Below, piece after piece: positions 20,801-62,041 of a DNA stretch of 64,000 bases. Both the position numbers and the translations under genes were made by a program. The stretch spans positions 4,402,001 to 4,466,000 of the forward strand of contig OZ004588.1 of assembly GCA_963924555.1 (NCBI GenBank), in the 5' to 3' direction. The DNA is from Crambe crambe. Its lineage: Eukaryota > Porifera > Demospongiae > Poecilosclerida > Crambeidae. A model generated the notes under the pieces. The model did no database searches. It was not told the DNA's origin and worked only from the letters and a program-made list of their open reading frames with translations. Within the stretch, counting starts at the first letter, position 1; each line of letters opens with the position of its first letter.

Positions 20801-23800
20801 AGCATCGAAGGTTTGTACAAGCTGAAATCTCATATCTGTAGAGTTTACAGATTGTCATTGACATTACTAGTATATATATATTTTTTAAGGTTAGATTTGA
20901 TCCATAACTAGATCAGTGCCTGCAATCACTCACAACGCTCTCTAGTGAGCATCCAGTTGTTTAGAGTTATCTCTGACTGTATAATTATTTTGGATACATG
21001 CACCATACTTTCATCTCTTATTAAACAGGCAAGTAGAGATGGCTGTGTAAAGTTTAAAAAAAAAAAAAATTCATGAATGAGACTCCTAATTTCAATCTTA
21101 CTTTACTCCCCACAAGTGCTCTTGAAGTACAGAGTAATGCTCTCATGGAAGTAGTATGGGCGTGGTTATTGAAATTAGTAGGAGGGGTAAGCTCTGCACT
21201 TATTTTGAACTTGCCATCCTTACACACCTGTTTTATTTAGAATAAACAATTTTCCTTTATTTGTTCATCACCTTTTTGAGATTACAGATGAAAATATGGT
21301 GCATATATCCAGAATAATTATAGAGCCAGAGATAGTAATGAGATTGCAGAAGAAGTTATGGTGCATGTATCTATAAGAGTCAGAGATATTAAGTAACTAC
21401 ATTATTTTTGTTATAGGTTGTCAATTCATCAGAGGTTTCTTGTATGCATGAGCTGAAATGAATCTGATCTGGAAGGACAAGTTGCTGATGGAGCTCTTAT
21501 CTATACAGTTTATCAGAGAGGGGTAGCTCTCTCTATGTAGGGATGACGTGGACTCCGGATATAGACGTGAAATTAACGAAAGCTACTGTGAATGCTTACT
21601 ACAAGGTGCAGAACGAAATTAATCAGTAATACAGCAAACACTGGATTCTTCTTCATTGATTCTTCTTCTTCTTAGACAACCATGTCTTGCGACCTATTTG
21701 GCTTAACTCGGGGATTTTAGATTCACCAATCCGTCTACTCTGCATCCTCAATCTCAAAGTGTAGTTGGGGTACTAATTTATTGCTATGCCATTGAACTAT
21801 TGTCCCTGAAGAATGAACTCCTGCATATACGTATACATAAAGGAACTACATAAAATAGGCCAGTAGGGGAAAAGTTCATGAAAAAGAGAGCCTACTCCAA
21901 TAACCACACCCACATTACCTAACTACTTATACCCACTATAGGGAGCAAAGTAGGTGCTCTCATGGAAAGTGAAACAGGGATAGAGTAGTTGGAGTGGTTA
22001 TCGAAATTGTGAGGAGTAGGCTTTCTTGTTCATGAACTTTTTTTGAACTTTACATGCCTATTTTTTAGAATAATACTTGCTTGTTGTTGATAATACGGTG
22101 CATATGATTAAAAGAGTCATAGATACTTGATATTCTTTATAACCATTATTAAACTAGATGCTGTGATCCGCTCATCCAAGTTATTCATGTATTGTAGCTT
22201 ATCCGAGGTCTGCATGAGACTGCATGGAACAGCAAACAGAAGTCATTACAGTGAGCTAGCTAGCTAACTAATCCTTGCTGCAAGCTTTATTTGAATGTGC
22301 TCTGTTGGACTCTGTCGCTTTGTTGGACTGAATGTGGTAACTTCTGACTGTGATGCCTATCAGCAGGTGAGCCAATTTAGAAACTGCAATGTCTCACTCT
22401 GAGTACTAAAGCCAACAGAAACTGGCTAGGAAATAGTGTGTATGCGCTCCACCCCCATACTTGGGATTTTTGTGCATGTCTGTTGCATGAAAACGTAAAC
22501 ATTATCTGCCAGCTCAGTTCTAACTGATTTGTGAAAAGATTCTATTACATATACAAATATAAATGCAAAGAGGACAGTGCAGTCTTAAGCGAATAGTATG
22601 GTACATACATGTACACATCATTATTATGATGATAAACAACCAAATGAAGATGGTGATTTGAAAAAGCACATGAAAGATGACACTATGGGTGTTAAGAAGA
22701 TATATCCCAGCATCTGTGCTACCACTACTTAGACCATACTCCCTGACAGCTGCATGCAAGCAACTAACTTTTCTTCCTGAGAAAAATGGTTAGTTGCTTG
22801 TGTGCATGGTTAGTTTCATTAAGTGCACACAATAGCTACAAATCTAGCTAGATGGGGGAGCTACATAGATGCTCAGGACTGCTAGTATTTCTATGAAGCA
22901 GTAATAATAGCAAGCTACATATCAGAATTATTACTAAACTATAGTGAATAATAATTACAAGTAAAATTTACCTTGGTGGATAAACTTGTGTCTGATTTTC
23001 ACGTTTGTAATGACTCAAATCAGTTTGAACAGAGTGTGTAACTTTATATCTCAGGTTAGCCTATAATAAAAAATAATGGGAAATATGGTTTTTTTGCCTT
23101 TTTTTTTTTTTGAGGCTTTTGAATAAGAATTATATACAGTACAAAATTAATGGTTCCTTATTTTCAGCCTTTTCTCTAAATGCAATATCATTTTTCTACT
23201 TTGTCCTTGAAAAAAACAACAAAAAAAAAAACAAAACAAAATAAACAAACAAAAAAACAAGAAAAGAAAAAATAAATAGCAAGGACCAAAATTCACAATT
23301 AGCTACGTAAATAATCCATTCATGAAAAGAGCAGCAACAGCACCCATAAGTGAGTAATTCTGATCATATTCTATCAGAATTTTTAAACCTGAAAAATAAA
23401 TGATTCATGAACATTTTGGGCCTCAAACTTCTAGCTACACCAGGGGTGTGCATTTCATTCCAAGATTTGTTGAGTATATTAAGGGGCACATATGGAGGTA
23501 TTCATGTGGGAAGTGCTTTCCAATGACAAATGGACAGTTTTCTTATCTAGCTCTAAATATTTTAATGTGCCTGCATGAGCATTAGAGCATTCACCATGCA
23601 CACGGAGCTAGATCAGAGTGATCTAAACAATCAAGTGCTCCAGTTGGAACATTCTTATGACTCACCATAGTACCTAGTAAGTTCTGAACTTCTGATAAAC
23701 GTTAAAGAACACAATATTCAAAAAAATAATAAAATTGGCAAATTCCTGAGATTTTCCTGCTTGAAACTAGGTGAAATGCTAGTCTATAAAAGAAGACTTA

Positions 23801-26800
23801 GCTCCTCACCACTAGGCTCCCGTGTACTTTTAGCACAGTTCCTCAAGTGTGCACTGAATATAAAAATGTGGTTTAAAGCACACTTTTCAGAGGATCTGAT
23901 TGGTCACAAGTCTGACTAGCACTACTTATAGCTTACTAATTTTATAGCCTTTCTCCTCAGTTCCCATTCATTCCAATCATAAGAACAACAAATATTAGAC
24001 TCCATAAAATGTGTGTCAGTTTGAGTTCCAATATCACATTTAGTAACTGGTAAGTGGAGCATCTGCTTCTTACCTCCCTAAATTTTGATTATTAAGAAAG
24101 AGTTATGCATTATCATGTCAAAATTAATTCAGGGAGCGAGCACAGCGAGCGAGCTGACTGACTCATTAAAATTGTAAATATATTATATATATCTAGGTCT
24201 ACGCCCCAGGCTTATGTATGTATGTGTGCATGCATAATGCACATGCTCCAATTGTAATCAAGCTAGATCGTTTTCTACAGCCTTTTATCATAAGAGGCAC
24301 TAGGCTTATCATGCTTGCTTGGTTATCTTAAGTGATTGTGGTAAGTATTTTTATGTATGGTTGGAACCACCACTCTTGTCCCTGACAGCAATATCAAGCA
24401 CTGGAGCCTATCAGCTACTTTGCTTGCTTACTGTCTAACTCTTGCACATTGTAGTTGTAGAGGCTGGGTTATTTAAGTACTTTATTACATATAAACTCAA
24501 CAGCAAAATCTAAAGAGTTGTAGCACTAAAGAATACTTGCTTGCTCGCTCGCTTGCTCGCTGTTAAATGTTGCACATTGTCCTAGTAGTACATACTCTAG
24601 TGCCAGGAGTAGCTGCAGAAAAATGTGTGTGCATATCGAGTAGCTGGATAACTTCTGGTGATTTCTTACTGCTCCAAACAGCCATGGCCAAATACCTGAA
24701 TAAATAAATAACAATAAGTAAATACTACAGCAGGACTCTATATTTTAGCCATACTGCTATGAACACTGGTATACTTTCAATACAGCAACCAGAGCTAGAG
24801 AATGTCATATTTTGACAATCCTTACCACAGAGAAAGTGGATACAGGTGTATGCACTACATGTCTGTCTGTTTAGTTATCTGATATCATAATTATCGAGTT
24901 TTTATTTTGAATTATGGTGTGAAATTTACTTATTCATCTCAGGTTTATAATTCAGAGAGCGAGCGAGCTGACTCTAAGGTCATGACTTATTGAAATTGTT
25001 CTATATATCAGAGAGCGTAGTAGCACTCTCTATGTAGGGTTAGTCCGGAACGGGCGTGGCTTCTCTCATTTGAATTTTACAAACTAGACTCTCTTTATCT
25101 CTTTTATTTGCTTATATCTGGAAAACAATGCAGAAAATGATATGTCCGCTCAAACTCCTGTGTCAACAATCGGCACCAGCCGCCGTCTTAATAAATTTTT
25201 ATGATTCATTCATCATCATCAGATTCAATATAACTTCATGATCTTTTCACTTACGACAATCAAATTTATATCCAGTTATAACCATACAATGTGCTTTTAC
25301 CATTCTTATCCACACAGTTTTCCTCAAATAATATCAAAAGACTTTTTCTATAAACGATACAATGTCAGCCATTTTAAAACTAAATCATTCGTCATGTGTG
25401 GCGAAGATATAGAAAAAGTCATGAGTTGCATATAAAAAGTAAGAAGGGGAAAAATTTTATGCTAAATAAAAAGGCCATGTAGGGTTAGTTTGTACTTTTA
25501 CCTGTAGCAATTTCTGTGAACAAATGTCAAAACTATGCTGCCTTCAATAATAATCCCTACATCACTGCCTAAACCAAGCAGAACACTTTTACACTGACAT
25601 GAATTAAAGCAGCTTGGTGGGAGGCAGATTATTATTGAAGGCAGCATAATTTTGACGTTTGTTCACAGAAACTGATACAGGTAAAAATACAGACTAACCC
25701 TACATGGCCTTTTTATTTAGCATAAAATTTTCCCCCTTCATATATATATAGGTCTACACTCCAAAATGCCCCAGGCAGGTACAAGCATATGTAGCACAAT
25801 AGAAGCACCCAGTATGAAATTATGAGCATGCCCCAATTACTTGATTGATTTCTATATCACTTTGTTATAGCAAGGTGGATTGTACTATAGGTTCTAGGCT
25901 TATCTAAGTGGATTGTAAGCACTAAACTTACGTAAAAGTGCTTTGTGGTAAGTACTACAGCTTTCTATGCATGCAGCTGCCTGCCACTTACATCACTCAA
26001 CAACAAAGATTTGAAGCACAAATGACTATCAGCTCTAAGCCATAGGAATACTATACATTATTCTTGCTCGCTTGCTGTCAAATGTTTCACACTGCCCTAC
26101 TACTATACTCACTATCAATAGAAATGTTTGCATCTATACTGCTAAAATATAACAATCACAATAGCATAATGTGGACAGAACAAACCAAAGGGCCATGGCT
26201 TTCTAAATAAGTAAAGGGAAACTTTACACATACCATACTTATGCTTGGGGCATTTTGGAGTGTAGACCTTGCCTGGGTTATAAACAACCCGAGTCCTGAG
26301 GGCACAGCCCGAGTGCAAGGGTTGTTTATAATCCATAAAACCCATGGCATCCATGTTATAACTATTTTATATCTAGCTAAGGTGAGTATAGACTAGGCTA
26401 GCTACAGTAAAGTAACTTTACCTTGATGCTTTAGCGGCCGCGCTGTCTCCATGGAGATTAAATGTTTCCATGGACTACGGACATTATGGCTTATAAACCA
26501 CACCGCGGGCCTTTGATCTCACCCACGCATGGGATATAAATATAATAAATTTTAATGAGTCATGACCTGAGAGTCAGCTCGCTCCCTGAATAATAATGTG
26601 GATGCATGTCACTAATTGCATGGCAGGCAAGTAGGATCAAGTTGTATACTTTCTACCAACAATCAATTATTTAATGCTAAATTATCAATTGCTATGTAGA
26701 GAGCAACAAGCAAGACTCATTATATCGAATTTCATTTGTGCCCTCCCTCCCTCTCCCTCTCCTCTTTGTTGGACTCCTAAGAGTGTCAAGCTTCATTATT

Positions 26801-29800: not shown

Positions 29801-32800
29801 CTTTCTCTCCAGCAAGATTTAAATCTTCACTGGATAAAGAGCTACACACACCTTTATCAGAGGATTGGATTATCCTTCTTTGGTAGAAAAGACATAGTAT
29901 GGCAGCGTGACTTTTCGACGGTTGGCGATATGATGCTTAAACCATCAAAGCATCAAATTAAAATCATTGTCAATATTTCCAACTATACAGTAGTGAGCCT
30001 AGGTCAAGTTGGCGGTTTAAGCATATTTCAAAAAATAAAACTGTCAAAAAGTCGCGCTGCCATACTATGTCTCTTCTACTGAAGAAGGAGAATCCAGTTC
30101 TGGCTGATAAAGATGTGTGCAGCTCTTTATCCTGTGAAGATTATAAAGCTTGCTGGAGAGAAAGCCAAATTCGAAACTGATACTCCCTGGGGTAAATCAG
30201 AGGAGTAGTGCTTTGAACCTGTGATAGAACAAAGAATTGATGAGCCATCCATCACTGTAGTGATTGCAGCCGTCTCAAGAACAGCAACAGCATAAGGGTA
30301 GCTTTCAGTCTCTCTTCTACACATAATTGTATTTCAATTCAGACAGCCCAACAAGGTGGTAGGTTAGAGATAGTTTTAAATCTTCTGGATCCAGACTGTC
30401 GATACCAATTTTGCCTTAAAACTAAGAGGTCTAAACTATAAATGCACTTCTATTTTAGGAGTTTCTGGGACTGTATCCAGGCCCCCCTTTTAACCTCATG
30501 CCCAGGCCCCCTTAACCTCGAAGATGCAGGCATTTCAACAGATGACTGTACTCCACTTCAAGAACAAGAATTGGATGAAGGGATTTATTCTATAAAACAG
30601 GACAATCCTAATGATAGCTTATTAGGTGGTGCTTAATAATACATGATGCTTACATGAAGTGCTCCAGTACTTACATGAAGTGCTCCAGTACTTTCACCAA
30701 GTGCTCCGACAATAATTGTGCAGAAATCTATTTAGAGAAGAAGTGTCCAGATTTTGTTTACCAGATTGTGTAAAATCAGATCATGGGGGAGAAAACATTA
30801 CATGATTGGCAATCACAATTTTAATTATTCTTGAATAGTTACTGGAAGTTCTGTTCATAATAAAAGAGTTGAACGTCTCTGGTGTGATGTATAGAGTAAT
30901 TTCACTGATAGTGAAGTTTAGAAAGATCCTCTGAATGAGGTTGACTTGTATTGTTCATATTTGCATCAATAAATGTAGTAGCTGAGTTCAAAGAAAGTAG
31001 GAACCATGCTTTCTTGAGCAAAGGGAATATAACTCCTTGAAGGATTAAATCATGTGCTAAGTAATGGCAAGGCACTTAAAGTTTGGGATTATAAGACAGT
31101 GCTGTAGGAGTTGAATCATTGGGGAACAGGTATTCAAAATGCGACACTCCAACAACTTTCTATTACTACTAGCTCGGAAAGTGGTACTGTATTGTACTGA
31201 AATGCTGTGATTTGGCAATCACACTTAGTACTGTGTTGTTGTGGTTGTTGTGTTTTGTTCATTAATTTGATTTTGGATATGACTTAGGTGCACATAGCTA
31301 TTAACAGTGTAATGTCTGGGCATGCTACTTTATAAATGACACTACTTTAAGTTAACCAAGTGGTCAACTTAAAGTAGTGTCATACTTTATCACTTTATGT
31401 ACTTTATAAAGCAGTGTCATACTTTATAAAGAAGCATCATACTTTGTCAAACTTGATAAAGTTTTGTCATACGAAAGTAGAGTCATAATATGAAGTTTCG
31501 ACCAAAAAAAAAACCACATAAGTTTCAGCTGTACTCTGTTTAACTTGTCATAACTATTAATCACTTATTACTATACATGGATTGATGCATGATAACATGC
31601 ATAAATATAAGGATTGTACTTGCTAGTTAGTAATACCGACAAACTAGCTATTGATATTACAGTTTAGATCTGATACCTCAGACTGTCTTTGTTCATCAGT
31701 TAAAATATCAGATGAAATTACCAAAGATTTGAACTCAGAGCTATCTGATATATCCAGAGCATTCTAAAAAGCAATATAAAATGCAGCATACAATAATGTA
31801 TTCATAAATACAATAGCCTGTACATTCAAAACCGGGGCAAAATGAAAATACTACCTTATAATTCACCATCCAATACAGTCCCTCATAAGTAATTTGAAAG
31901 ATTGGTAAAGACATCACAGTGAGTGGATGAAAATTACCTTTGTAAAAGGTGACAGACTTGTAAGAATATTATTCAGAACACTTAGCAGTACCACTTCATC
32001 TTGAAATTCTGACCAAATTTGAGATAAAGAAACGAAGAAAGGCTGCATAATTACAACAAAGTAATTTTAAATTCTGTAAAGATAATGTTAACTAACATAA
32101 ACTTGTGATGTTGGAACAGCTGACTTAGACTGAACAGTATCCTTCAAAGTATCCATTTTAACTCTGAAATCCTGCTCCAACTGATCCAAATGTTGGGCAC
32201 AAATCAATATATCACGCTGCAAGATAATGCACACAACAGTTGATACAATCTTAGTCATGTAGCTAAATACCCAATGATCTCTTGAAGTTAACATAGTACA
32301 ATACTTGGTTTCAATTACATCTTACTACTAAAGAGTTTACAGTGAATGAACAAAGAGACTATCAGGGCAGGCAAAAGTTACCGACTTTGGGATGTCCAAG
32401 TTCATGGACATGAACCCCACTAACACAGTGTCCAGGAACCTCAGCCTACATGCCTCCAGAGGCAACGACAACACCACCTCGCTTAGCCCAGGCTCTAAAA
32501 TTATGCAGAGGCAGGAAATAGAGCCTGGTACCCACTATTTGTGCATGCGCCAAAAATTTCACGCGAAATTCCCACCTATTACACTTGATGACGGTGTGTA
32601 ATGTCACAATATGTAACTACGTGTATGAGCATGCACTATAAGATACCAAGAAATGAAATTCTCTGGAGAAGAGAAGACAAGACTGGCACTTTAAGAACTA
32701 TTCATAGTGACAAGAATTTCTTTATCCATAAGCCGCTCTCCCTTAAATCCAGAGGAGATGATCACAGCCTCAGCTCTGCACTATTCCCCAACAAATAAAC

Positions 32801-35800
32801 GAACGGAGAGAATTGCTTGCTGCTCCTTGTTCAGTACTAGGCAGCCGAGATAGGGCGTAAAACAAACACACCATCCGTGAAGAAGAACTGGTGAACTAGA
32901 GCTAGTCTGCTGCAGTGCTGATTCAGCAGTATTGCGTCATGCATCACGGAAGATTACTGAGAGATTACAATTCCCCCCAATCATGGGGGAAAATTGACGC
33001 ATGCGCAAACAGTGGGTACCAGGCTCTTTTGTCTGCCTCCGCAAAATTAGAGCCTGGGGACGAGGCTACACCTCGCCATTCCAGGGCCCCTTTTGGGAGT
33101 GTGGCATTAGGCCCCACTCCCTCCTTTGTGAGTCATGAAGGATGTCTGTGTAGAGACACACTCCCCCCATACTCTAGCACACACACTCCCCCCATACTCT
33201 AGCACGAGGTCACCCTCTAGCCTTAGCGCCCCTATCCACAAGGGGGAGGGAGGTTGGGCAACCTTGCCCAGATGTTAGGCTGACGATAGCACTCGAGGTG
33301 GGCGATGGGGGTGACTGGGCCTGGGAACCATGGCCATGCAGCTATTTAGCAAACTAGGGGAGTGGCCCCTGTAAACTACTAATCATTGTAAGGTGAATAG
33401 TCTAGCTATGTGACCCTGGACAGATGTCAAAATGTTGCATATAGAATGTACTTAATGCACATAGACATAGATAATGTAATTGCACTGATTGATTTCTAGA
33501 GTCAGGGTATATCAATTGCTGTTTTGTGCATGTAGTAAATAACATATGCAGCTGCATGGCTGAACAGCCACTAGTTGGAGATTGAAAAGTACTACTTGCT
33601 CACTAGTACTGCTGTGAATTGACTGGAAAGCCGAAGTACATGTACATTAAAGTGAATGGAAGACAAAACACTGGCACATCATCAGCAATAGGTAAATCCA
33701 TAGAGTACAAATTCCTTGAAATGGAGATGACCCAAGAAGAACAATTTACTGAATGCAAATGTTGCTACATACCAAGTAGAAAAATTAATATTAAAAATGT
33801 CCTAATAATGTTTCTGCTCTTACATGCACTCTAGAGCTTCATTCTTCCCATCTGAGAACTTACTACTGTCATAAAAGAGCAGGAAATCATCTTTTTCTCA
33901 GCCAAACACTGGTTTTTTCCCCCTAGCTACGTAATTCGATGTCATGTACTAACACATTGACTATGCATGGTGGTACGTTTCACGCGCACGCGCAATGATG
34001 CACAATGATGTGTATCAAGCACGTGCATATTAGCTATAGCTATACCTAGCTAGCTAGCTAGCTAGACATGCTCTACTAACAGTACTCACAAAGGACAAAA
34101 AGACTGCAAGCTCAGGCTCGCAGTCACTATGCGGTAACTCTACACCGTGAAATGCTTCTGGGCCGTCTTTGCCAACAAATCAAGCCCATTATGACATGAA
34201 GAGAACTGACTAAAAGACAGCAATGAACAAAAATAGAGATTCCAGTGTACACGAATTAGTGATCGTTTGAAGTGCCAAAGAGAGAGCCACAGTGAAGGAG
34301 AATATCAGAACTAAGACTTTGAGGCTTCCAAACAATGAGAGAATCCAGTACACATACTTCAATCAAGCCATGTGTGACAATAACCATTCAAAACGGCAGT
34401 TCTAAGTGTTGAACAGCAAGAATATTAGCTAATTAGGCGAGCGAGCCACACACTTGTGATGCAAATTGAGATTCGTGTGCACTTTTATGCCCATGCAGCA
34501 GTGTTCAGCAATTCCTTCAAACATTATAATCGTTCTTGTAGGACTCTGGCTTCAAGCTGGTGATCCCTCAGTGTATCTTTACTTGTCTCTTATATACTCA
34601 CTATAAAGCATTTAAATAAATAGAAATAAAATTTAAAAAGTCAAAGGTTGCACTTAAGTCCAGAGGCATTCCTAGTCTTTTAAAAGACTAACTTGTTAAA
34701 GGAGAGGGGAGGGATTGAAGGAAATCACCACCCTCAATCACAAATAGACAGCATTGTGCTCAACTGAAAAGAACAACCATGTATTCTGTATGGGGAAATT
34801 GAAATAATTTGGGGAGGACTTTAGTGAACTACTGAAGGACAGCAAGAATGAGAAAAATAACTCATCTGAGAGGAACATAGATAATGTGCTCTGAGGGATA
34901 GCTTTGTAACTAACCATTAGTACTTTAATAAATGCTTCTAGCTGTCTGCAATTAATTAAACATTGCTTCATAACCAAAACAGACAGTTTAGTTGGAACAG
35001 AATGTGGAGATTCCATGACATGAAGCAATACCCCTAATAAAATAAGAAAAAGAAAATGACAATATATCTAGAGCAATTATGAATTGCATACTTATTATAA
35101 TTATGCACAAGTATAGCAGCTATAAGAAGGTCGACAGAAATCAGAATGGACAGGATTGAGTCTAAGATGTTGTAGTTGTAATTAAGCTAGGATGAAGAAA
35201 CTGCTTTACAGTAAAGGCAAAAGTTTTGGTAAGTGCTGCTGCAAAATATCAATGGAGTGGAAATTAAGCTAGACTTTAATCATTTTGCACATTTGCTTAG
35301 TGATATATATGAAAAGCTGCTGTGGAGTAAATTCTAACCTGTTAATTCAAATGCCAGCTTTAATATCTTGGCCATTTCTTGATCAGCAGTTTGACTTGTC
35401 ACTTGAAGAGCATCACGAAGTATTAGTGGCACTATATAAATTTAGAATACAGCTAAATAATTTTCACCGTATACTTCTCAATAATTATAACAGTAGTGAT
35501 GGGCACAATTACTAGAGGAATATTTATAGGTTCCTAAGTCAGAAAAATTTATATCACCTCTGAGCACTGAGAGGCAAAGATGGTTGGCAGAGTTTCAACT
35601 TTAAGTTAGAGAGAAGTTCCCTCTGGTGCTAGGAAGCTCTAACCAAAGCTGAAAGAAGAGCAACAAGGTACCAGGGCACAGATAACTTAATAAGTTCCAT
35701 ATTTCCAAGCGTGTAAGAAGAAAAACTTGTCTGAGTTTCAATCTTTGTGCATGAAGCTTTCTAGCTAACTTTCATTTGAAGCCTATATATTCTGGTTACT

Positions 35801-38800: not shown

Positions 38801-40760
38801 AAAAAAGTGAGTGAAGCAACCACATCACTTACATTGGATTTAGTGAAAGGGTACTACCAAATCTCAGTAGCTCTGCGATATCAAGAGAAGACAACCCCCA
38901 CGGGAAAATAAGAATACCATTTGGGCTCAAATGAGCCCCAGCTACTTTTCAGTGAACTATGGATGACCTACTATCCCATCGTACATTGACGGATCATAGA
39001 AGGGTTCTACACTAAAATACCGTCAAACTTGAAAAGTGTTCCTTTGCCGAGACCCAAGTGGAGTTTCTAGGAAGGAGGAGAAATAGTCTGACCACAAGCA
39101 GCAAAGATTTAGGCTATAAGAAACTTTAAACATCCAAAGATAAAAAATTAAAAAAAGACTTAAAAGACCTTAAAGCCACCCTATCAGATCTAAACAGAAA
39201 AGGGGGGCTAACCGACTACCATGAACAGAGAGATTCACAGATCAAGGCTCAACTGTCATCAGACACAGTTCTGACATGCCCCAATTGGGACCGACCATTT
39301 ATCATAGATGGTTCAGGATTGGCTCAGTTCTCAGTCAAAGGAATGAAGATGGAGAAGAAGGCCATGAGAAAGGAAATATACCGTAACAGAACTGGAATGC
39401 TTGGCAGTAGTGGACTCAGTACGACACTTCAAGGTCTACCTACTAGGCACAGACTTCACCATTGTTACAGATCATGGTGCCCTGCAGCATCTACAATTCA
39501 GCATGGAGGACCAAGAGTCACACGTTGGGCAACCATTCTCATACACATAGCAGGAAGCTGTCACAACCATGCGGATGGTACTTCAAGACAGGCCTGGTGC
39601 ACACCCCAGGCTCCGACCCTCAAAGGGGGGGGGGAGATTTCAGAAACTCCCTCTATTCATCTCACGAGTCCCTGACCCCCAGGATCTTTCTTATATAACA
39701 TTACACAAGTAAAGGGAAAAAAAATTTAAAGAAAAGTAGTGCAGTTCATAAAAGACAGTGAGCTTCAGTCAAGTAACTCCTTACCCATCACCAATATTAC
39801 CAAACTACAAGCTAACTATTCCTACTTCACTCCCATGACAGGCCAAGATGAGATATAAAGGGAGTGAAGTAGGAATAGTTAGCTCGTTGTTTGGTAATAT
39901 TGGTGATGGGTAAGGGGTTACTTGACTAATGTGCACTCTCTTGTTGCTGAACTTTTTTGTACCGCACACAGCCATCCCTACTTTCCTTTTTTATTTAGAA
40001 TCCTTTACTCATTCATCACCACCTTTTTTGATGTAATGCTCTATAGGTAACTGGATCCTGTGATCCTGCTATCCAAGTTAAAGTTCATGTATTGTAGCGA
40101 TGTAGTTCATTGGACAATTCATCATAATATTGTATGAGCTGAAATGAATCTGATCTGGTGCTACCTATACAGTTTTAATACTTAAAGATTGCCATTGGCC
40201 TGAATTTTGTTTTAAGGCCTTTACTGATATATACCTGATATACTGTTGCATCAAGGCTTGATTCATAACCAGACTAGTCCCTCCTACTAGTGCCTAATGG
40301 GAAGCTAATGAGAGATTTGTTAGTCAGTTGTGATGTCAAGGTCCAAGAATTATGTGTAACGGGCATAAAAATGTCTGCCACGTTGTAGGTTGAAACTAGC
40401 AAGTTAGAAAATGACGTGCTATTTTTTAACATGTCAAGTTAGAGGTAAAGGATTATAGCACAGTCAATTCTGAGTAGATTGGTATAAGAATTATAGCATT
40501 TGAATGATGATGATGATGAACGACCAGATGAAAACGGCAATTTTAGAAGTCGCTGTAAAATGATACTGCTTTGTCTTCTGCTCTTCATACTTGAGTCTCA
40601 AGGTGTTCTGTCTTCAAGTTAGGAGTTGCTGACTGTGTAGTATTCTGGAGTTATGAAAGAAAATACTAAGTCGATGGGGCAATTTGTGCCATCCCTACTT
40701 AAAGAGTACTATCATACTCTCCATTATCATTCCACGTGAGTCCCAGAAAAGTAGAAGAAG

Positions 40761-40793
<33 letters not shown>

Positions 40794-43700
40794 CATTTGG
40801 TTCAGGTCATAACAATATTGAATTGTATTATATAAAATGGAACCAATGTACTGGTTTTATGAACCCATTTTCATATTCTTTTAATCTTATTTCTTCAAGG
40901 TTCCTTCCTCAACACCCGATTATCATAGTGAAAAGAGAACTACCAGGTTGCTCTCTCTGAGCATTCAGTAAATCTCAGATTCAACATATGATTCATACTT
41001 GAACATTGTTACTTGCCCAATTATTAGTACATATACCTATATCAGCTGGCCATGTTGCTAAACTTCTAGTAACATGGCATACTGCATTAACTAATGCATA
41101 CCGGTAGCTTCTCGAACAACAGCAATATCTGTGGGTGATCCAAGACCAGAACTTAATAAAACGTATGAAACAATCTTTCGATACAAACCTACAGCAATAT
41201 CATATGAAATTGACATGCAGATAATATTGGATACTATATTATAGTTAGACACTGAGACCTAGGTGTTCAGACTCTTCTACCATCTAAGGGCCTGAAGGTT
41301 TCTAAAATTATGGCTAGAGGTGCCTAACTTATTTAGACTGCAGTGTATGTGCACATGTAAAATTCATGTTACTGAGAATTAACATTTTCCTGGTATCCTA
41401 CATCATGTCTAATTCAGCAAGCGGAGAGCAAGCTGACTCTCAGGTCATGACATAAGTGTGTGTGCAATAGTAGCGCCCTGCCCTGCATTGCATTTATAAA
41501 TGCATGTGCTCTGATTGTAATTTCACTCTTTGTTATAGCATGGTGGATTGTAGGCACTACCCCCACTATACTAAATGCAGGGCAACCTGTTTGGATATAG
41601 AACTTTAAAGGAAGTGGGCTGGGTCTATGGCACTAATTGAATTATATTCTCATGAATATACTTAGGCACCCTGTTTGAAAGTACAACTAGGGGAGACTCT
41701 TCTGATCGGACCATCAAACAGATCAGACCATCCTTGCAATCGTTCAGTTTGTCCTACGCCTACTGGAGCAATCTGTAACATCTAGGATGGTAAAGATCAG
41801 GAGTAAACCCAAGAGTATTGGAGCCAATTATCTAGCTACTACTAGAGAGTTAGCTACGTAACAAAAAGCTAGCTAGCTACATTGCATGCTAGACTGCTTA
41901 AATCAGCTTTTGTGTAGAAGTCTGAAGTCTGCTCATTCTAATTCTCTTCAGATCAGTCCTTCCAGGGTAAAGTGCAGCAGAAATTCGCATGGGTGCTTAT
42001 TTTCTGACATCATGAGTTACCGTGGTGAGGTAAGCATATCGCCAATGCTCATTAAAAAAAAGGATGGAAACAAGTAAGCACAAAAAATTTCTTCTAAATA
42101 AAAAGGTTAAGTAGGGATAGCCTAAAATCTAGCTGGGCTATATAATGTACTGCAGCCTAGCTCGTATGAAAACAATCCCTACATTTACATCCACTACCTA
42201 TAGCTAGCTACGGCAGTTGTAAAAGTAGGGATTGTTTTCATACGAGCTAGGCTGCAGTACATTATATAGCCCAGCTAGATTTTAGGCTATCCCTACTTAA
42301 CCTTTTTATTTAGAAGAAATTTTTTGTGCTTACTTGTTTCCATCCTTTTTCTTAGTGCTTGCATCGACCGTCACTTCAACTGAGAGTATGCAGTGATGAA
42401 GCTACAGTACAGTACAAAGCCAACTCTACATAAACCTTATCTTTTTCTTCACTGGTTAAAGAATTTGTTTAGCTATTCAGTTTTGTCTATTAACTATTTA
42501 ATATCAGCAATAGCAATGTAACTGAGCATGGTGACTACACTACAGCCAAGTACTGGCCTACTACTATAGGATGAGCATCTGTACTGTAATTCACTAAGGA
42601 GTGACTGGAACATCATCAGATAAGAATAAATAGCTAGCTAAACGATTAAACTGAAGACTTAAGCCTAGCTAGCAGAGCTACTGAAGTTTTCGTGGCTCCG
42701 CCCATAGGCCCCGCCCCCTACCGACGTGCGCTTCAAAATGGCGTAGAAAGATTAGCTAGTGCCGAGTGCTATCGAATAGTGAGTAGAGCCTTAGTCAAAA
42801 CTAATAGCAAAAGATCAGCCTCTAGGTGCCGCTCTAATAGATGGCCAAAGCAGAATTTTGATGACTATAGCCAGTAAGTCGGGGCGTTGATCTTATATTT
42901 ATTATCCTTATTATTATTATTATAAAGATAAAGAAAATGAACAAAAGTCAATTTTAGAACTCGTTTTTTTTTTTATGTTAGCGAATGAATTTTTGATTTT
43001 TGAACACTCTCCTCTCTTCTTCGTAGAAGTAGTATCTCACTGTAGCCTTCTGAGAACCTGTAGAGCAAGGGTAGAAGAGAAAGAAGAGTTTTAGTTTATA
43101 CAGTCCTATGACCTTTGACCTGCCATCCCTACTTAGAGAGTGCTAGCGCACTCTCTGATATCACGCTGTTTGTGACGTCACTCACGTGATAAGTTTTACC
43201 AGGCCTTTCTCTCACTTAGTTTTCTTCTTCTTCCTCCCACGCAGTTTAGTGAGTAACTACAAGTGAGAGAGGAAGGCCTGGGAATGAGGCCAAGTAGATT
43301 GTAGGCACTAGACTTATCTAAGTGCTTTTTGGTAAGTACTACAGCTTTCTATGCAGGCAGCTGCCTGCCACTTACATCACTCAACAGCAAAGATTTGAAT
43401 CACAAATGAATTAGAGCAAGCCATAGTTATACTAATATTGCTTCTTGCTCATTTGTTACACATTGCCCTAGTAATACACTTATTTAGATGTCTAAGTAAA
43501 TATGTAGAAACTTGCTACAGATCAATCAGATTGTTCCATTCTACCATCTATACTCTAAGTGATAATTCAGCGAGTGAGCAGAGTGACTGAGCTGACTCTC
43601 AGCTTGGATCCTGGACTCAGGAGAGTCTGGCTCTCTCTCTCAACGCTACACTTCGGACTCGTCTGGATCTCAACACACTTTTTGTACTGGAGGTCTGTTA

Positions 43701-46700
43701 GCCCAGACTAGCTGTGGAGTTAGTCTCGCTCAGGCCAGACTCTTCCGGTGACACTGGCTCTGGAATAGGCTCTGAATCTGGCGCTGGAAATAATTATAGA
43801 TTGCCTACATTATTTTTCTTCAGGAATGCTACCTATACTAGCTATTATAGCTACATGCAATTGAATGACTTTCCTGCTTGTATGGTTCATGTGCCACCTG
43901 CACAAAGTTACATTCCTAACCTTCTTGTGATTTTTCAGCTCGTTTTCCACAATAATGATTCTGTTATTAGTGCTTAGACTTAGTTGCAGGTGTGTAGTCA
44001 TGTTGGAACCCCCTTAAGTAGGGATGTTATAAATTTAGCTGGGCTATATAATGTACTGCAGCCTTGTATGAAAACTATTTACATCCACTGCCTATAGGTA
44101 GCTAATGGCAGTTGTAAATGTAGGGATTGTTTTCATACAAGGCTGCAGTACATTATACAGCCCAGCTAGATTTAGGCCATCCCTACTTAACCTTTTTATT
44201 TAGAAGAAATTTTTTGCGCTCACTCGTTTCCATCCTTTTTCTCTGTAGCTAGCTAAGACGTGCTTTAACTTTGACCGTGAAGTTGAAAGTAATGAGGCTA
44301 CAGTACTATACAAAGCCAGCATCCCTACATAACCTTTTTAATAACTTATCTTGTAGGTACGTAGCTGTACTGGTGATTGAAATTCATAAGATTTATTTTT
44401 CTTTATTATTATCAGCAACAGCAATATAAATGACTATATAAAATTTCTCTAGATACTAGCTAGTATCTAGAGAAGTTTTACATAGCATATGCTAGCTGAG
44501 AGTAGTAACAACAACGTTAATGACATATGCATGGCATGGTGAAGAGAGAGCAGTTTAGCTGCAGCTCATAGGCTGCAGCCAAGTACTGGCTGAGCTAATA
44601 GCCAGCTGCTAATATTTTGTTGTCTTGAGCATGTTGTCTTGAGGGAAGAAAGTAGATAGCTAACTTAGATGAGCAGCTGTACTGTAATGCAGTAAGGAGT
44701 GAGAACCTTAGTCAAAACTAATAGCAAAAGATCAGACTCTATGTGCAGCTCTAACAGACCCCCATAACAGAATTGTGACAACTATAGCCAGCAAGTCAGT
44801 ACGTCAATCTTTGATATACATTATTATATTAACATTTACATCCACTGCCTATAGCTAGCTATGGCAATTGTAAATATAGGGATTATTTTCTTACAAGATT
44901 ATATAGCCCAACTAGATTTTAGGCAATCCCTACTAAACCTTTTATAAATTTTTTTGTGAACTCCAGATAATTATAGGTGCTACATTAGTAAATGAGTACA
45001 ATCTTTTGCTTGATTTGAACTGCAAAGATTCATTTCTAGCTTAGCTACGTATGTATTTCTTCTCTATTACCTTCTAGTTCATCCCTGCTTCTTGCTCTTG
45101 TATCTGCAATCTCTCTAACAATTGGAAGGAGTCTGGTTACCAACACCTGATGGTGCTCCTGTAGGAATTCCACTACATGAAAGAGAAATTGATAATCTTA
45201 ACAGAATTTATTACATTATGTAACTTATTTTTGCTCAATTGTTGCACATTACACTAGTTGCCAACAAGAATTTTGTTTGCATTATCTAAGTTGCTCAGTT
45301 TTTTTGTTGTGTTGTTTTTGTTGTTTTTTTTCAAGCTTAACCGACATGCCAAGTGGAGCAGCATGCAGCGCATGTTATTTGTGCTTATTACTATACCTGT
45401 AATATTTATACACTATTCATTACAATAATAAGTTATAGGATAGGGTGTGAAAGTATCTTTGGTCTTGGGTGCTAGTGGGGGAAGGGTGCTAGTGGGGGAA
45501 GGGGGCAGTGGTGGAGGTGGAGTGGAATGATAATGTGTTGTGGTGGAGGAAGTGGTGGCAGGGGGGAGTCAAGTGGTATGGCCATAGATTGTATAGACTA
45601 CATAACCGGGATTGGAAACGCCACATAGCAACAATACTATCTGCTTGCGGTGCATGGCAGAGCTGAAAAGCTTAACGTGGAGGAATTGACCTCTCGAAGT
45701 TCAGAAGTAAGTCCATAGCATAGCTAGTAATTTCACTACCTTACTCATATAAAAAGCAAATTTTTCACTGCTAAGATATCCATACCAGCCTGTTTTAGTC
45801 TGTTTTGGCTTTACCTGTATCCCTTACAGTTTCAGAGTTTAGTATACACTCTACTTCATGTCCTCATACCTAAAATTTAGTGAACTTTGCATGCATTTCA
45901 GAGTTTCAGCAAAAGTTCACATTAGCTGGGTGTGTCTGCGTACCTTTTGTTAAGTTGTTTCTAGTGATCCCAATTTATATTCATAATAAGTAGTTATTCC
46001 TTCATGCCCTGCACCTATACTTTCCAAATGTATGCATTCCCTTGCCAAGAAAAAGCTGTGTACATTAATATTTAATTATATTCCTCAGGGATGATCGACT
46101 GATAGGGAGGCTTCAATATCTTCACTCATAATTTGGGCAGAGAACAAGAAGGTGCAGAGGTGAAGAAGAACCTGAAAGAAATCACCAGGATCAATGGCTG
46201 CACACTTATACCCAAATTTGATAATTATTGTAAATTAATGCAGGCGTGCACAATAAGAAGTGGCCAGGTGAGTTTATATTAATCCTGGTTACATAGTCTA
46301 TACAATCTATGGTATGGCATGATTCGACCTGCACAAAACTGATAAGGCTGGTCTGCAAGAAGAGGTAAGCTATTTTATCACAGTAACAATTTATTACTCT
46401 CAGAGATCCCAGTGCCCTCCAGAACAGCCTATGGAGTAACCTTCACTGGCACCAGTGCCCTTGGGCCTACATCCAGAACTGCCTACTGGCACCAGTACAC
46501 CTCCAGAATGGCCCACAGAGTAACTATCACTGGCACCAGTGCCCTTGAGCCATAGCTAGTATCTCCAGGACAGTGCCCTTGGGCTATCTCCAGAACTGCC
46601 TACTGATGGCCTCACACTGGCACCAGTACCCTTGGGCCTACCTCCAGACACACAGTAACAATCACGCTCTTGGGACTACCTCCAGAACAGCCTACATTGT

Positions 46701-49700
46701 ATTCTTTAGTACATACAGATTTCTTCTGAAGGGGAGAGGTACATTTTTTGCAACCTTACAATTGAAGTGACTGTGATGGCCACAAGATTTACACGTACAC
46801 ACTGGTTAGTAGAGTCTCATCTCTGTCTGCAATCAAGCCTTGCTGCTACAGATGAGAAAGCTAAAGAACTCTGAATGTGTTCTTAGATTGTATAGTGAAG
46901 ATCGTCAACATGGAAACAGTAGTATAATTTCTAACCTGATGCACAGTCCAAAACGAAGTAGAATTAGGCGCTCTAAGTTAAAGGCATGGAGGAGGACGAA
47001 AGTATTTTAGAGATCCGTGATGGCAGTGAAGCTCTGTGGTACACAGGGAAGAAACACGCTTTGATTACTTTCATTACATTACATTACATTACATTATATT
47101 CCTTTTTTTTCCTACTTGGTATGTAATTTTTTTTTATGGGGGGATCTATAACATGGAACCTAATAAAGGAAAAAATATTTATTCTAAATAAAAAAGGAAA
47201 GTAGGAATGGCTAATGTGTATGGTTAAAAAAAGTTCAGCAACAAGAGAGAGAACTTCAGTCAAGTAACCTCTTACCACGAGCTACTTCACTCCCATGATA
47301 GGCCAAGATGAGATATGAAGGGAGTGAAGTAGGAATAGTTAGCTCGTGGTAAGAGGTTACTTGACTGAAGTTCACTCTCTTGTTGCTGAACATTTTTGAA
47401 CCATACACATTAGCCATTCCTACTTGCCTTTTTTTATTTATAATAAATATTTTTTCCTTTACTTGTTCATCTACTTTTTTGATGTAATGCAGGTAGACTG
47501 GAAACATGGACTCCACCAACATACATCTCTACTAGAGATGAAAGTATCATATTTCCAGTTGGCATAAGAATAGAGGCCTGCAGCTAGCTATCATCATTGA
47601 TGATTGATCTGACTGACAAGAAGAAACTGTTAACCAAGATCACTATTTGCTCTGTCCAACACACATGGTTCAAAGAATCAAGGGGCGGGGCTATTTCTAT
47701 ACAGCATACTGGGTCAACAATGTCACGTGTACGGGGCGGGGCATAAATGTCTGCCTCGTTGTAGGTTGAAAGCTAACAAGTTGGAGTAGATTGGTATAAG
47801 AATTATAGCATTTGAATAATACCATTTCTGAAATAAGTTGTTTAATGATGATGATGATGACGACGACAATGAATGACCAGATGAAAACGCTAATTTTAGA
47901 AATCGCTGTAAAAATGATACTGCTTTGTCTTCTGCTCTTCATACTTGAGTCCTAGCACATTGAAGGTGTTCTGTCTTCAAGTAAGGAGTTGCTGACTGTA
48001 GGAGGGAAGTATTCTGGAATTTATGAAAGAAGTACTACAGTACTCCAATGGAGCATCCGTGCCATCCCTACTTAGAGAGTACTATTGTACTCTCTGATAG
48101 AAGAGCCAATTCTATCTTGTATTTCTCAGTTATTGCTAGTGTGATCCCAACTTCTTTTTCTTATATAGCTTACATAACATAATATTGATGACCTTTACCT
48201 AATACACTGACAACCTTAAAATTAATGTATCTTCAACTACAGGTTAGCTGCTTCCTTTTCATAATTATGGTGTGATAAATTGTTCACATGTTCATCTCTT
48301 ATGACCTGTCTTCACTTTATATTAGTAACGTGAAGATTTTAAAAACGCAGTATGTGGTTTTCCTTAGATTCCAAAACTTGTACTTCTTTTCAGGATAAAT
48401 AAATACTAAAAGTAAAGAAAAACATTCATTTATTCAAGGTAAGATGTAGGGATGACTAGTTGGAACAAGAGCTGATATGCAAGGATGAAATTGAATGTGG
48501 GCACATCACACCTAGTGACTGCACCTGGAATCGACTCCATCTTTGCATAATCTCATCTATTCAGCTCGTGTTCTTATTTGACAAGTTAACTATAGGCATC
48601 CATACATCAACTTGAATAAATACTGTTGCTTGTTTCTTTCAATTTAAAAAATTTGCAGATCATTACCTATATCCATCTCATTCAGCGAGCGAGCTGACTC
48701 TCAGGTCATGACTCATTGAAATTGTAAATATATTATATCACTCCAAAATGCCCCAGGCATACCTGGGTCCTGAATTAGTAGCGCTGTGGTGTCCCCGAAT
48801 TAGGCTTGTGGTAAGCATTTACAACTTTCTAGTATGGAGCTTCCTGGTTAGAACCACCACTAACAGAACTCTTGCACTGGAGCCTATCAGTTACTTTGCT
48901 GTCACATATACTTAACAACATAGAATACTTGCTTGCTCACTCGCTGTCAAATGTTGCACATTGCCCTAGTTATAGTTACTTGTTATGCCAGGCCTATTAT
49001 TTTTGTGATTTCATTTTGCAGGAGGTGGTTAGTGCTGTACATCCATAGCTTCCTTTTTTCCCTACACATACCAGTTATCAGAGTGCAGTAGCACTCTCTA
49101 TGTAGGGTTAGTACGGAATGGACGTGGCTTCTCTCATTAGAATAATATAAACTGGACTCTCTGTATCTCTTCTATTCTTGCTACAGGCTCAACTAAACTA
49201 CTTACATCTGGAAAATAATGCAGAAGATGATATGTTCGCTCAAACTCCTCCAGAACGTCAACAATCGGCACCAGCCGCCGTCTAAATCTAAAATTTTTAT
49301 GATTTGTTCATCAGATTCATCTTCTTTGACGGCTGTAACTCCATGATCCTTTCACATACGATAATCAAATTCATATCAACTTGTGCAGTTATATTCACAC
49401 AATGTGCTTTTACCATCGTTATCCACAGTTCTCCTCATAATCAGTCATGTCGAACGACTTTTCATTACAAACGCCATTTTGAAATTAATGATGTCATTTG
49501 TAATGCGCGAGCATCTGTCACATGTATGTACGTGCATACCAACCAGTACCTACCTAGCTAGCTAGCCTCTCTAAACAGTAACATATTCAATGGTGAGAGT
49601 CATTTGTACTTGACTTATTAGGTTAAGAAATTGCAGCAGTTGTGGCAGCTACATACACAGGAGGCTGTATAATGCTTACCACAAGCACTTAAAAAGCCAA

Positions 49701-52700
49701 CAATCCCTCATGACTAAATGCAATAAGCCTGTGTTCTAATAGCTTCGCACCTCGCACCAGGGTCTCAGGAAGGGGGAGGGGGAAGGAAAAGAGAGCCTGG
49801 TTGCCACTGTCTGTGCATGCGCTGATTTTTTAAGCCGTGAATCACCACGCGCGTGCTATGTTAGTCATAAAATGTCATTTAAGCATGGTTTCGACCACGA
49901 GACAATCCTTGTTTCGAGGGCGAAAAGGACAACTGAGCAGAATACTAGTAGTAGTAGACAATATACTTTGACCTATGATGTTTAGTGTTGCAGACATATA
50001 CAGGCAAGTATCCGGATTCTGCAAAATCGCGGAAAAATCAGCGCATGCGCAGACAGTGGCAACCAGGCTCTATTTTCCTTCCCCCTCCCCCTTCCTGAGA
50101 GCCTTGCGCGAGGCTAGTGTTCTAAGTGCTATGGGCATTCATTTGTGGGGTCAAAGGTCGAACATATGCACATAACTATTGGAGCATGCCTGCTAGCTAT
50201 TGATGTACCAAATATATAAATAAACATACATATATCACGAATCTCAATTTGCATCACAAGTGTGTGGCTCCCTCGCTTCACTCAAAAAATGAAAAGGTCA
50301 TATAAAAAGTAAATAAACAAGTGAATTTATGCTAAATAAAAAGGGCATGTAGGGTTAGTCTGTACTTTTACCTATAGCAGTTTCTGTGAACTAACATCAA
50401 AATTATGCTGCCTTCAATAATAATCCCCATATCACTGCCCAACCAAGACGTGAACAATTAAAGCAGCTTGCAGTGATGTAGGGATTATTATTGAAGGCAG
50501 CAGATGTTAGTTCACAGAAACTGCTATAGGTAAAAGTACAGACTAACCCTACATGGCCTTTTACTTAGCATAAATTTTCATACCATTGGTGGATTCTACT
50601 GCGCATGCGCTTTAGTGATACTAACTCTTCAGTTCTAGATACAGCTGAGCTACTCAGCCGGCTGGTTTTCATTTCTAAATAATGCACACCACAGGCACTT
50701 GAGTGTTACTAAGTTTAAACGTCTAGGATACAATGACTGTAGAGAGATGCTGCAAAAAAACAATCTAGCTCGATCACAATTGGAGCATGAACATTATGCA
50801 TGCACAGTGCTACTAATTTGGGACATGTACCATAGGGCATTTTGGAGTGCAGACCTAGCTAATAAGCTGAATCTTTTTTCTGATTAGACTTTGCCAGCAA
50901 TATTTGTGGGAATACTGGCCAAAAGACTCTGTGATATTTCCAGGTATGTACAGCACTTGGAACCTCATTTATCCAGGGTTGGAAATTAATACATGCACTA
51001 TAAGCATGTGTAATGGAATTTAACATGTTTTCGAGAGTGCTTTGCACAGACACAACTGTACAATAATACACCATGGCAGGTTAAAGGTGTATAACAAAAA
51101 ACTCTTCTGTCTTTCTCTTACTCCACAGGTTCTCAGAAGGCTACAGTGAATTACTACATCTGATTTAAAATTGACTTTTGATTATACAGATAACAAGTAA
51201 GGAAAAAATATTTATTCTAAATAAAAAAGAGAAGTAGGAATGGCTGTGTGCGGTTCAAAAAAGTTTAGCAACAAGAGAGTGAACTTCAGTCAAGTAACCC
51301 CTTACCATTCACCAACTACGAGCCACTTCACTCCCATGATGAGATAGAGTGAAGTAGGAATAGTTACCTCGTAGTTGGTGATTGGGTAAGGGGTTACTTG
51401 ACTGAAATTCACTCTCTTGTTGCTGAACTTTTTTGAACCTCACACAGCCATCCCTACTTCTCTTTTTCATTTAGAATAAATATTTTTTCCTTTACTTGTT
51501 CATCATCTTAATGCTCTACATCAAGGGTTGATTCATGACCAGACTTACTAGTGCCTAGGGTTTACGCTCTGAGTATCGAGACCAAGAAGGCTAATGACAG
51601 ATTCACCACTCAGTTAGTTGCAAGGTCAAGGTCCAAGAATCACGTGTACGAGGCGGGGCATAAAAATGTCTGCCTCGTTGTAGGTTGAAAGCTAACAAGT
51701 TGGAAAATGACGTGTGCTATTTTTGAACATGTTGATTTAAAGGTAAAGGATTATAGCACAGTCATTTCTGAGTAGATTGGTATAAGAATTATAGCATTTG
51801 AATGAACCATTTCTGAAATAAGTTATTTGATGATGATGATGATGATGAACGACCAGATGAAAATAGCAATTTTTGAAGTCGCTGTAAAATGATACTGCTT
51901 TGTTCTCTGCTCTTCATATTTGAGTCCTAGCACATTGAAGGTGTTCTGTCTTCAAGTTAGGAGTTGCTGATTGCAGGAGGTAAGTTATGAAAGAAAATAT
52001 TAAGTACTACTCCAATGGAGCTTCCGTGCCATTAGAGAGTACTATCGTACTCTCTGATTGAAGCGAGCGAGCAGACTCTCAAGGTCATGACTCATTGAAA
52101 TTGTAAATATATATATTTCCAAAATGCCCCAGACTTACGCTGTGTGCCTGTGGGTGCATAATGCACATGCCTTTTGTCATAGAGGCTCTAGGCTTATCTA
52201 AATAGATTGTAGGTGCTTGGCTTATCTAAATGCTTGTGGTAAGTATTTACAGCTTTCTATGTATAGAGCTTCCCTGTTGGAACCACCACTTACATGACTA
52301 TTGTCTCTGACAGCAATATCAAGCACTGAAGCCTTTCAGCTGCTCACTTGCTCACTGTCAAATGCTACACATTACTATAGTAGTAGTTGTAGAGGCTCTA
52401 GGTACTTTGTTACATATAAACTCAACTGCAAAATCTTCTAAAGAGTTGTAGCACTAACTTGCTTGTTCGCTCGCTGTCAAAATTGATGTTGCAATTGCCC
52501 TAGTTAGCTCAACTATACTGACTCATTGGCTATATTCCATCTGACACCTACAGACTGATCTTTTGCTATTAGTTTTTATTAAGGATCTACTTCACAATTC
52601 AGTGATATCGATAGCACAGTAACACTAAAGTCTTTCTCTTCCATTATGAAGCCAGCACATGTGCACTGGAGGGGCGGGGCATGCATATGGGCGGGACCAC

Positions 52701-61432: not shown

Positions 61433-62041
61433 TAGCCTCGTCCCCAGGCTCTAAAGTTTTGTGGAGGCGGACAAAAAGGCCTGGTACCCACTGTTTGCAC
61501 ATGGGCCAATTTTCCCCCTGATTGGGGGGATTGTAATCTCTCAGTAAACTTCCGTGACGCATGATGCAATACTGCTGAATCAGCACTGCAGCAGACTAGC
61601 TCTAAGTTCACCAGTTCTTCTTTGCGGACGGTGTTTTTGTTTTACGCCCTGTCTTGGCTGGGACAACCCCATCTAGTACTGAACAAGGAGCAGCAGCAAG
61701 CAATTCTCTCCGTTTGTTTGGGAATAGTGCAGAGGTGAGGCTGTGATCATCTCCTCTGGATTTAAGGGAGAGTGGCTTATGGATAAAGAAATTCTTGCCA
61801 CTATGAATAGTTTTAGAAGTGCCAGTCTTGTCTTCTCTTCTCCAGAGAATTTCATTGCAAAAGCTTTCTCGGTATCTTATAGCGCATGCTCATACACGTA
61901 GTTACATACAGTGATATCACACACCGTCATAAAGTGTAATAGGTGGGAATTTAGCGTGAAATTTATGGCGCATGTGCAAAGAGTGGGTACCAGGCTCTAT
62001 TTCTTGCCTCCGCATAATTTTAGAGCCTGGGTACGAGGCCA
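61433..62041 (+). mobile_element. C element, copy 2, with perfect 9-bp target duplication
   Basis: It begins TAGCCTCGTCCCCAGGCTCT and ends TTTTAGAGCCTGGGTACGAG plus GCCA. GCTATCACT flanks both sides (61424-61432 and 62042-62050). It is collinear with the reverse complement of 32484-33068 over its whole length. Confidence 0.85.

Follow-up and report, generated by a model that had tools for sequence, protein, structure and literature searches.

The closest described counterparts of the elements considered here are the Helitron2 transposons, in which one short subterminal inverted repeat (ATIR) lies inside a hairpin at one end and a second accompanies a short palindrome at the other (PMC3627910). 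According to the available part of that account, the ATIRs are 8–15 bp long, the 5′ ATIR is set 0–2 bp from the end of the element, and the 3′ ATIR immediately precedes a hairpin, at a distance of ∼20–30 bp from the 3′ end; compensatory change of the terminal features is reported there too. Some members, a minority form, carry Rep/helicase in reverse orientation (available parts of PMC3627910 and PMC5148889). The Helentron partners of the HINE elements carry an endonuclease and prefer TT (available part of PMC4067079). FoHeli1/2 of Fusarium have a hairpin at both ends and a 12-bp ATIR, and insert after TNAT and before A (T in the figure legend); self-insertion has been proposed as the source of their composites (available part of PMC5148889).

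Here, we analyzed a window (the whole stretch of 64,000 nucleotides from Crambe crambe, located in Table 1) for which a sequence-only reading had proposed elements of one asymmetric plan, with a long hairpin at one end and a short palindrome at the other, that matched no described class. The plan is found genome-wide, with 26 end-to-end copies of element J among the matches listed. J is a real element, but its usual start is at 42070 rather than at 42056 as first read. The view of J as one mobile element with two different ends, bearing a motif that resembles an asymmetric terminal inverted repeat and having a coding relative, was upheld, but the claim that no described class has this plan was not: in the parts of the two papers available, Helitron2 has it (PMC3627910) and Helentrons and HINEs come close to it (PMC4067079). 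The unusual part of the plan is the expanded stem.

The J hairpin folds at −139.9 kcal/mol, against a mean of −25.5 kcal/mol for its shuffled versions (z = −29.7, with 0 of 200 shuffles as good), and its arms (42050–42189 and 42218–42357) are 98% complementary. The stem of the window copy reaches ∼20 bases further outward than in the other J copies compared; this extension matches the far arm and is absent from the outer ends of those copies. Between the hairpin and the 13-bp motif lies a body of ∼780 bp that includes the (ATT)n tract.

Table 1. Location of the window and coordinates of the features within it (window positions)
Feature	Position	Strand	Remark
Window	C11:4402001-4466000		143-Mb assembly
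Element J, non-autonomous	42070..43157	+	Exact ends common to genome copies
J hairpin, long terminal foldback	42070..42337	+	268 nt; from folding energy
J stem extension outside usual start	42050..42069	+	Complementary to far arm
J subterminal inverted repeat (ATIR) AAGTAGGGATAGC	42109..42121	+	Outer stem
J internal (ATT)n tract	42907..42923	+	Target for insertions in other J copies, not here
J second ATIR, inverted (GCCATCCCTACTT)	43122..43134	+	Abuts palindrome; 12/13 bases as in first
J terminal palindrome AGAGAGTGCTAGCGCACTCTCT	43135..43156	+	22 bp, then terminal G
B1, same plan	47164..48096	+	Outermost hairpin-end bases unrecognizable
B2, same plan	51193..52056	+	3′ ATIR mostly deleted
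B3, same plan	39705..40723	+	Palindrome decayed
E1, ATIR variant ATGTAGGGTTAGT at both ends	25009..25748	-	Hairpin-end boundary approximate
E2, ATIR variant ATGTAGGGTTAGT at both ends	49079..50578	-	Hairpin-end boundary approximate
K, truncated J relative	44014..44943	+	No palindrome found
Truncated J relative	52545-52958	-	No palindrome found
Palindrome end with ATIR variant ATGTAGGGATGAC (the group 1 hairpin-end variant)	21514..21547	-	Known from palindrome end alone

The window had been credited with at least eight copies of the plan; six have both ends (J, B1, B2, B3, E1 and E2) and two are truncated. In E1 and E2 the stem ATIR is identical to the palindrome-side ATIR (13 of 13 bases, ATGTAGGGTTAGT), and 12 of 13 bases agree both in J (AAGTAGGGATAGC against AAGTAGGGATGGC) and in B1 (AAGTAGGAATGGC against AAGTAGGGATGGC). 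As the ATIR sequences differ between E and J/B yet match within elements, the ATIRs differ as a pair, with small departures. J and E also share an AT-rich spot in another repeat (window 24950–25006 and 25749–25790, together with L010, L014 and L019), a recurrent target that reads GTAGACCTA...TTTCAATGAGTCATGACC. Elsewhere, the window contains Copia-type retrotransposon ORFs (54796–58424, + strand), split over several frames, in which a gag zinc knuckle, integrase, reverse transcriptase and RNase H were recognized by eye, and two copies of a MITE-like element of ∼600 bp (32487–33068 and 61433–62039), in opposite orientation and 87.7% identical, with inverted ends of ∼70 bp.

A genome search with J returned at least 226 matches. 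Taking as end-to-end a match that covers the query from position 22 or lower through position 1099 or higher, the 26 such copies among the matches listed include the window copy and range from 77 to 100% identity. Of the palindrome-end words counted, one of 18 bases has 1,479 occurrences, one of 28 bases that is specific to J has 1,016, and that of a sister variant has 1,113; the same words reversed, as a control, have none. Across the sequences analyzed, 59 distinct 3′ ends were selected for an intact palindrome, and all of them read ...CTCTCTG followed by AT. On the other side, 37 outer J-type 5′ ends, 28 inner arms having been set aside, are preceded by T in 31 cases, by A in five and by C in one, and TA or TTA repeats host many copies. 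When the 14 distinct nested J copies (ACAAG...CTCTCTG) are excised in silico, the host sequence (ATT)nATAAAGAA is restored in phase every time, so insertion occurs at T|AT, with a boundary that is ambiguous by one base; the native tract ends TTATTATAAAGAA in 51 of 51 motif matches (overlapping loci included). The genome copies of J share exact ends, and the target duplications raised in the sequence-only reading are absent from all 14 nested sites: the target is T|AT, with no target site duplication.

Three further arrangements were recorded among the genome copies. Two loci (L070 and L073, at C1:3535634 and C1:3693823) have the palindrome-end word with identical flanks and no palindrome following, and may represent a duplicated stretch or another family. 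On C7, near 9.7, 49.6 and 89.6 kb, an identical trio of J hairpin-end words recurs at a spacing of ∼39.95 kb, which could reflect tandem repetition on a large scale or arise from the assembly. At L026:3817–3828, K-like and J 5′ ends stand head-to-head with TATTATT alone between them.

Many of the separated J pieces are halves of split copies. In L023, L027 and L028, 5′ parts that stop at (ATT)n are followed by a full copy and then by tails that start at (ATT)n, and the numbers of 5′ parts and tails are equal (four and four, two and two, and one and one, respectively, with one L027 5′ part incomplete). L059 and L061 each have one 5′ part and one tail around a full copy, and L024 would have four and four, provided that one unit with its start beyond the stretch is included and that a second is allowed an interruption of ∼2.2 kb. 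In L026, a 5′ part (99.7% identical to the window J) and a tail (100%) are separated by a copy of 80.5% identity, and an additional tail (91.5%) has no assignable 5′ part. L025 contains 5′ parts without matching tails within the stretch examined, as well as one direct end-to-end joint, CTCTCTGAT|ACAAGTG, without microsatellite. Four consecutive tails were found in L062–L064, where no full copy was read ahead and the 5′ parts were partly read. Finally, L018, L022 and L052 have 234-bp J tails without a preceding J-type 5′ part; these could have arisen by truncation, be left over from hosts that had a different body, or belong to a separate element, and nesting does not account for them. Serial same-orientation self-insertion of J into its own microsatellite is therefore demonstrated in several arrays but not for all pieces.

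A search of the genome for PF14214 (Helitron_like_N) gave 67 matches. A 527-aa query from one set of coding elements (group 1) recovered copies that are 99–100% identical, nine long matches at 63–64% (group 2), further matches near 29% and many degenerate pieces. The group 1 protein is an intact ORF of 2,371 aa with DUF6570, Helitron_like_N, PIF1 and two OTU stretches, and it can be aligned with Helraiser (7lcc) in its Rep and helicase regions. On the 3′ side of the ORF, two group 1 copies are 99.9% identical over 1,286 bp and diverge past ...CCCTTACTTGTA, the reverse complement of the hairpin end; the ATIR variant there is ATGTAGGGATGAC, and the hairpin arms in the two copies read are 160 bp long and 100% identical. 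We then compared 26 group 1 copies (query start ≤18, identity ≥96%, at least 298 aa aligned) for a 29-mer from the stem: its outer-arm occurrence lies 6,544–6,742 bp downstream of the Rep query start in 14, the inner arm alone is present in three, and nine have neither, with five of the 30 matches in total lying elsewhere. The chance expectation is ∼5e-5 per copy for a 500-bp window. Four shorter query-start pieces were left out (C10:4906504, C3:2082743, C1:4038777 and C15:2611545), of which C1:4038777 has the stem word 4.4 kb downstream and the other three have none near.

Exact words and coordinates served to place the palindrome end of the coding elements. In group 2, each of the two copies among those listed, both on C1, has the J 28-base palindrome-end word upstream of it, at distances of 3,856 and 3,949 bp, and one of the two has two more palindrome-end words further upstream in an array-like arrangement. 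The exact 25-base hairpin-end word of J is found ∼7.46 kb downstream of the group 2 copy at C8:5074057, where a second arm completes a 200-bp hairpin, and is absent near the other six of the seven group 2 copies among those listed; when two mismatches were allowed, the first 100 of 1,250 matches listed were exact matches alone. For group 1, whose copies within the listed ranges are all degenerate, the palindrome end was placed ∼2.8–3.4 kb upstream, on the correct strand, of those at C2:167514, C3:776481 and C3:490363. Overall, a palindrome-end word is present near five of 10 coding matches within the listed ranges, and none was found near the other five (C1:6137138, C1:4038777, which is disrupted, C3:522412, C3:1010721 and C3:419710). 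A scan for the palindrome end in L029–L048 and L079–L083 found none. The long transposase-coding relative with the same ends that had been suggested from the window thus exists, its hairpin end having been read in two group 1 copies and the other ends placed through exact words and coordinates.

A palindrome word at C1:4033939 was considered as a left end for the L078 Helitron fragment and rejected, as the intervening L078:1–620 is another abundant repeat and the arrangement occurs at a single place; lengthening the left-end word by AA left two matches and was uninformative. The repeat itself (C1:4034388–4035007) has 40 scored copies at 98–100% identity among 134 candidates. At L078:1537–1583 a J end coincides exactly with the start of the Helitron leader, a different repeat lies on the other side of J, and the upstream leader differs in two other copies. 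L025 shows a weak resemblance to a Helitron protein (38% over 85 aa), with no ORF of more than 100 aa there.

We consider it very probable that J, B and E, together with the truncated K, are non-autonomous Helitron-type elements whose ends are of the Helitron2/HINE type and which intact Rep/PIF1-helicase elements of the same genome mobilize in trans. The long hairpin, inverted motif at both ends and AT-rich targets would also suit foldback or MITE-like elements of the cut-and-paste kind, with terminal inverted repeats of unequal size and a DDE transposase as their mover; that origin is extremely unlikely, as the two ends are structurally unlike, they coincide with those of Rep/helicase elements, and at each of the 14 nested insertions the host tract is regained in phase with no target duplication. 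It is also very improbable, if marginally less so, that the hairpin with its body is one repeat and the palindrome tail another (a 234-bp satellite, for instance), brought together as neighbors. Both pieces do occur apart and in arrays, and the lone tails of L018, L022 and L052 are consistent with such independence, but these tails may be copies truncated at the 5′ end or what is left of hosts that had a different body. Against independence stand the 26 listed end-to-end copies, the equal 5′ parts and tails flanking a full copy in L023, L027, L028, L059 and L061, and the two halves of the split copy in L026, which fall in one identity class. The finding that might have undone the sequence-only reading, namely that hairpin and body are independent neighbors, is thus largely contradicted by the end-to-end copies, but for the lone tails at these three loci.

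The arrays themselves could instead be rolling-circle multimers or products of unequal crossing-over, rather than nested insertions. The head-to-tail order, the direct joint in L025 and the row of four tails in L062–L064 with no full copy read ahead are consistent with multimers, but we regard such an origin as unlikely because the order in L023, L027 and L028 is 5′ parts, full copy, tails, not a succession of full copies, and the joints, 14 of 14, keep the phase of the host (ATT)n.

As Helitron-type elements, these families can be compared with the described groups feature by feature. With respect to the Helitron superfamily as a whole, elements with the same ends encode a Rep (HUH) domain and a PIF1-type helicase in one protein, and insertion is at a fixed short target without duplication (59 of 59 3′ ends and 14 of 14 nested copies). 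Like Helitron2, as described in the available part of PMC3627910, they have short ATIRs, one in a hairpin and the other just inside a second hairpin: the ATIRs are 13 bp long, within the 8–15 bp range (deleted at one end in B2), the second J ATIR runs to 43134, directly before the palindrome and the end at 43157, and the first is contained in a hairpin, if one with a long stem. If the hairpin end is named 5′, Rep/helicase is likewise reversed, as in some Helitron2 members (PMC3627910, same part). The 5′ ATIR, however, lies 39 bp inside the end of J rather than 0–2 bp from it, the stems of J and group 1 measure 110–160 bp, long stems not being described in the part of PMC3627910 available, and the target is T|AT rather than the position after TTTT given there for Chlamydomonas families. 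Stem arms that change together and nested same-orientation self-insertion into the (ATT)n tract of J set these elements further apart from Helitron2 as described. Judged by the structure of their ends, with the 5′ ATIR placed as it is, these are best described as non-autonomous Helitron-type elements working in a Helitron2-like manner, not as strict Helitron2.

The elements also resemble HINE and DINE-1 elements, which, in the part of PMC4067079 available, are high-copy and non-coding, have subterminal inverted repeats and a 3′ palindrome, often contain internal simple repeats, and are mobilized by larger Rep/helicase partners; they differ in the target, T|AT, and in the long stem, which that part does not describe for HINEs. 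They do not fit the Helentrons, as no apurinic-type endonuclease domain was reported in the one group 1 protein scanned and the target is T|AT, not TT. In the coding direction they start TCAG, as do FoHeli1/2, the hairpins of which are short; microsatellite-guided nested arrays are not described for FoHeli1/2 in the available part of PMC5148889. No single direction fits all of the Helitron1 signature (5′-TC, 3′-CTRR and a hairpin 10–12 nt from the 3′ end): the coding direction reads TCAG...CTTG, with the ambiguous base so assigned, and the opposite direction ends CTGA. Neither a long-stem Helitron nor microsatellite-guided nested Helitron arrays were found in the literature searched, which is not proof of their absence from print.

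The sequence-only reading had also held that the hairpin arms stay alike while the bodies diverge, and this is confirmed for J. In a MAFFT alignment of 33 hairpins (35 sequences minus two, namely the window hairpin read in reverse and a partial copy at 71%), with pairs defined by the window copy, 4,010 of 4,069 cells at 127 pairs are Watson–Crick (98.6%), compared with a mean of 95.6% and a maximum of 96.1% when one side was shuffled 200 times; 20 of the 127 pairs occur in at least two Watson–Crick types. Arm-identity values from local alignment are flattered, as poor ends are trimmed. For a stem indel, mostly of 4 bp, the gap counts of the two sides match in 32 of 33 hairpins (none in 16, four in 13, five in two and one in one), and the single exception has the indel on one side. 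Changes common to both arms, the indel included, point to copying between the arms, probably by foldback-primed synthesis, as suggested by these symmetric changes and by the 20-base extension of the window copy.

In the mechanism that we propose for the Helitron-type elements, a Rep protein would nick at both element ends, with the palindrome end acting as terminator or initiator. The order of the ATIRs indicates the hairpin end as the rolling-circle 5′ end, and the direction of the ORF indicates the palindrome end. Pairing between the two ATIRs may help to mark the end of the copied strand, following the model of Bao and Jurka (available part of PMC3627910). With one ATIR inside a long foldback stem, the arms could be copied from one another while the strand is single. 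Because J carries a good target in its own (ATT)n tract, newly inserted copies would come to lie within existing ones, oriented alike, and nested arrays would result. We regard it as possible, though a little short of probable, that a Helitron end has grown into a foldback stem of 110–160 bp that is rewritten by foldback-primed copying and, combined with the (ATT)n self-target, has given rise to nested satellite-like arrays. If so, foldback-primed rewriting at transposition would keep both arms alike and permit their lengthening, and the built-in (ATT)n landing site would make the element its own preferred target.

For the sponge genome, a very abundant class of repeats is linked to intact, nearly identical Helitrons, which, being so alike, have probably been active recently. 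For the family, the elements provide evidence from nature that the two ATIRs of Helitron2-type ends belong together as a pair, and they show one concrete way in which a transposon can turn into satellite-like arrays, through same-orientation self-insertion into a microsatellite that the element itself carries.
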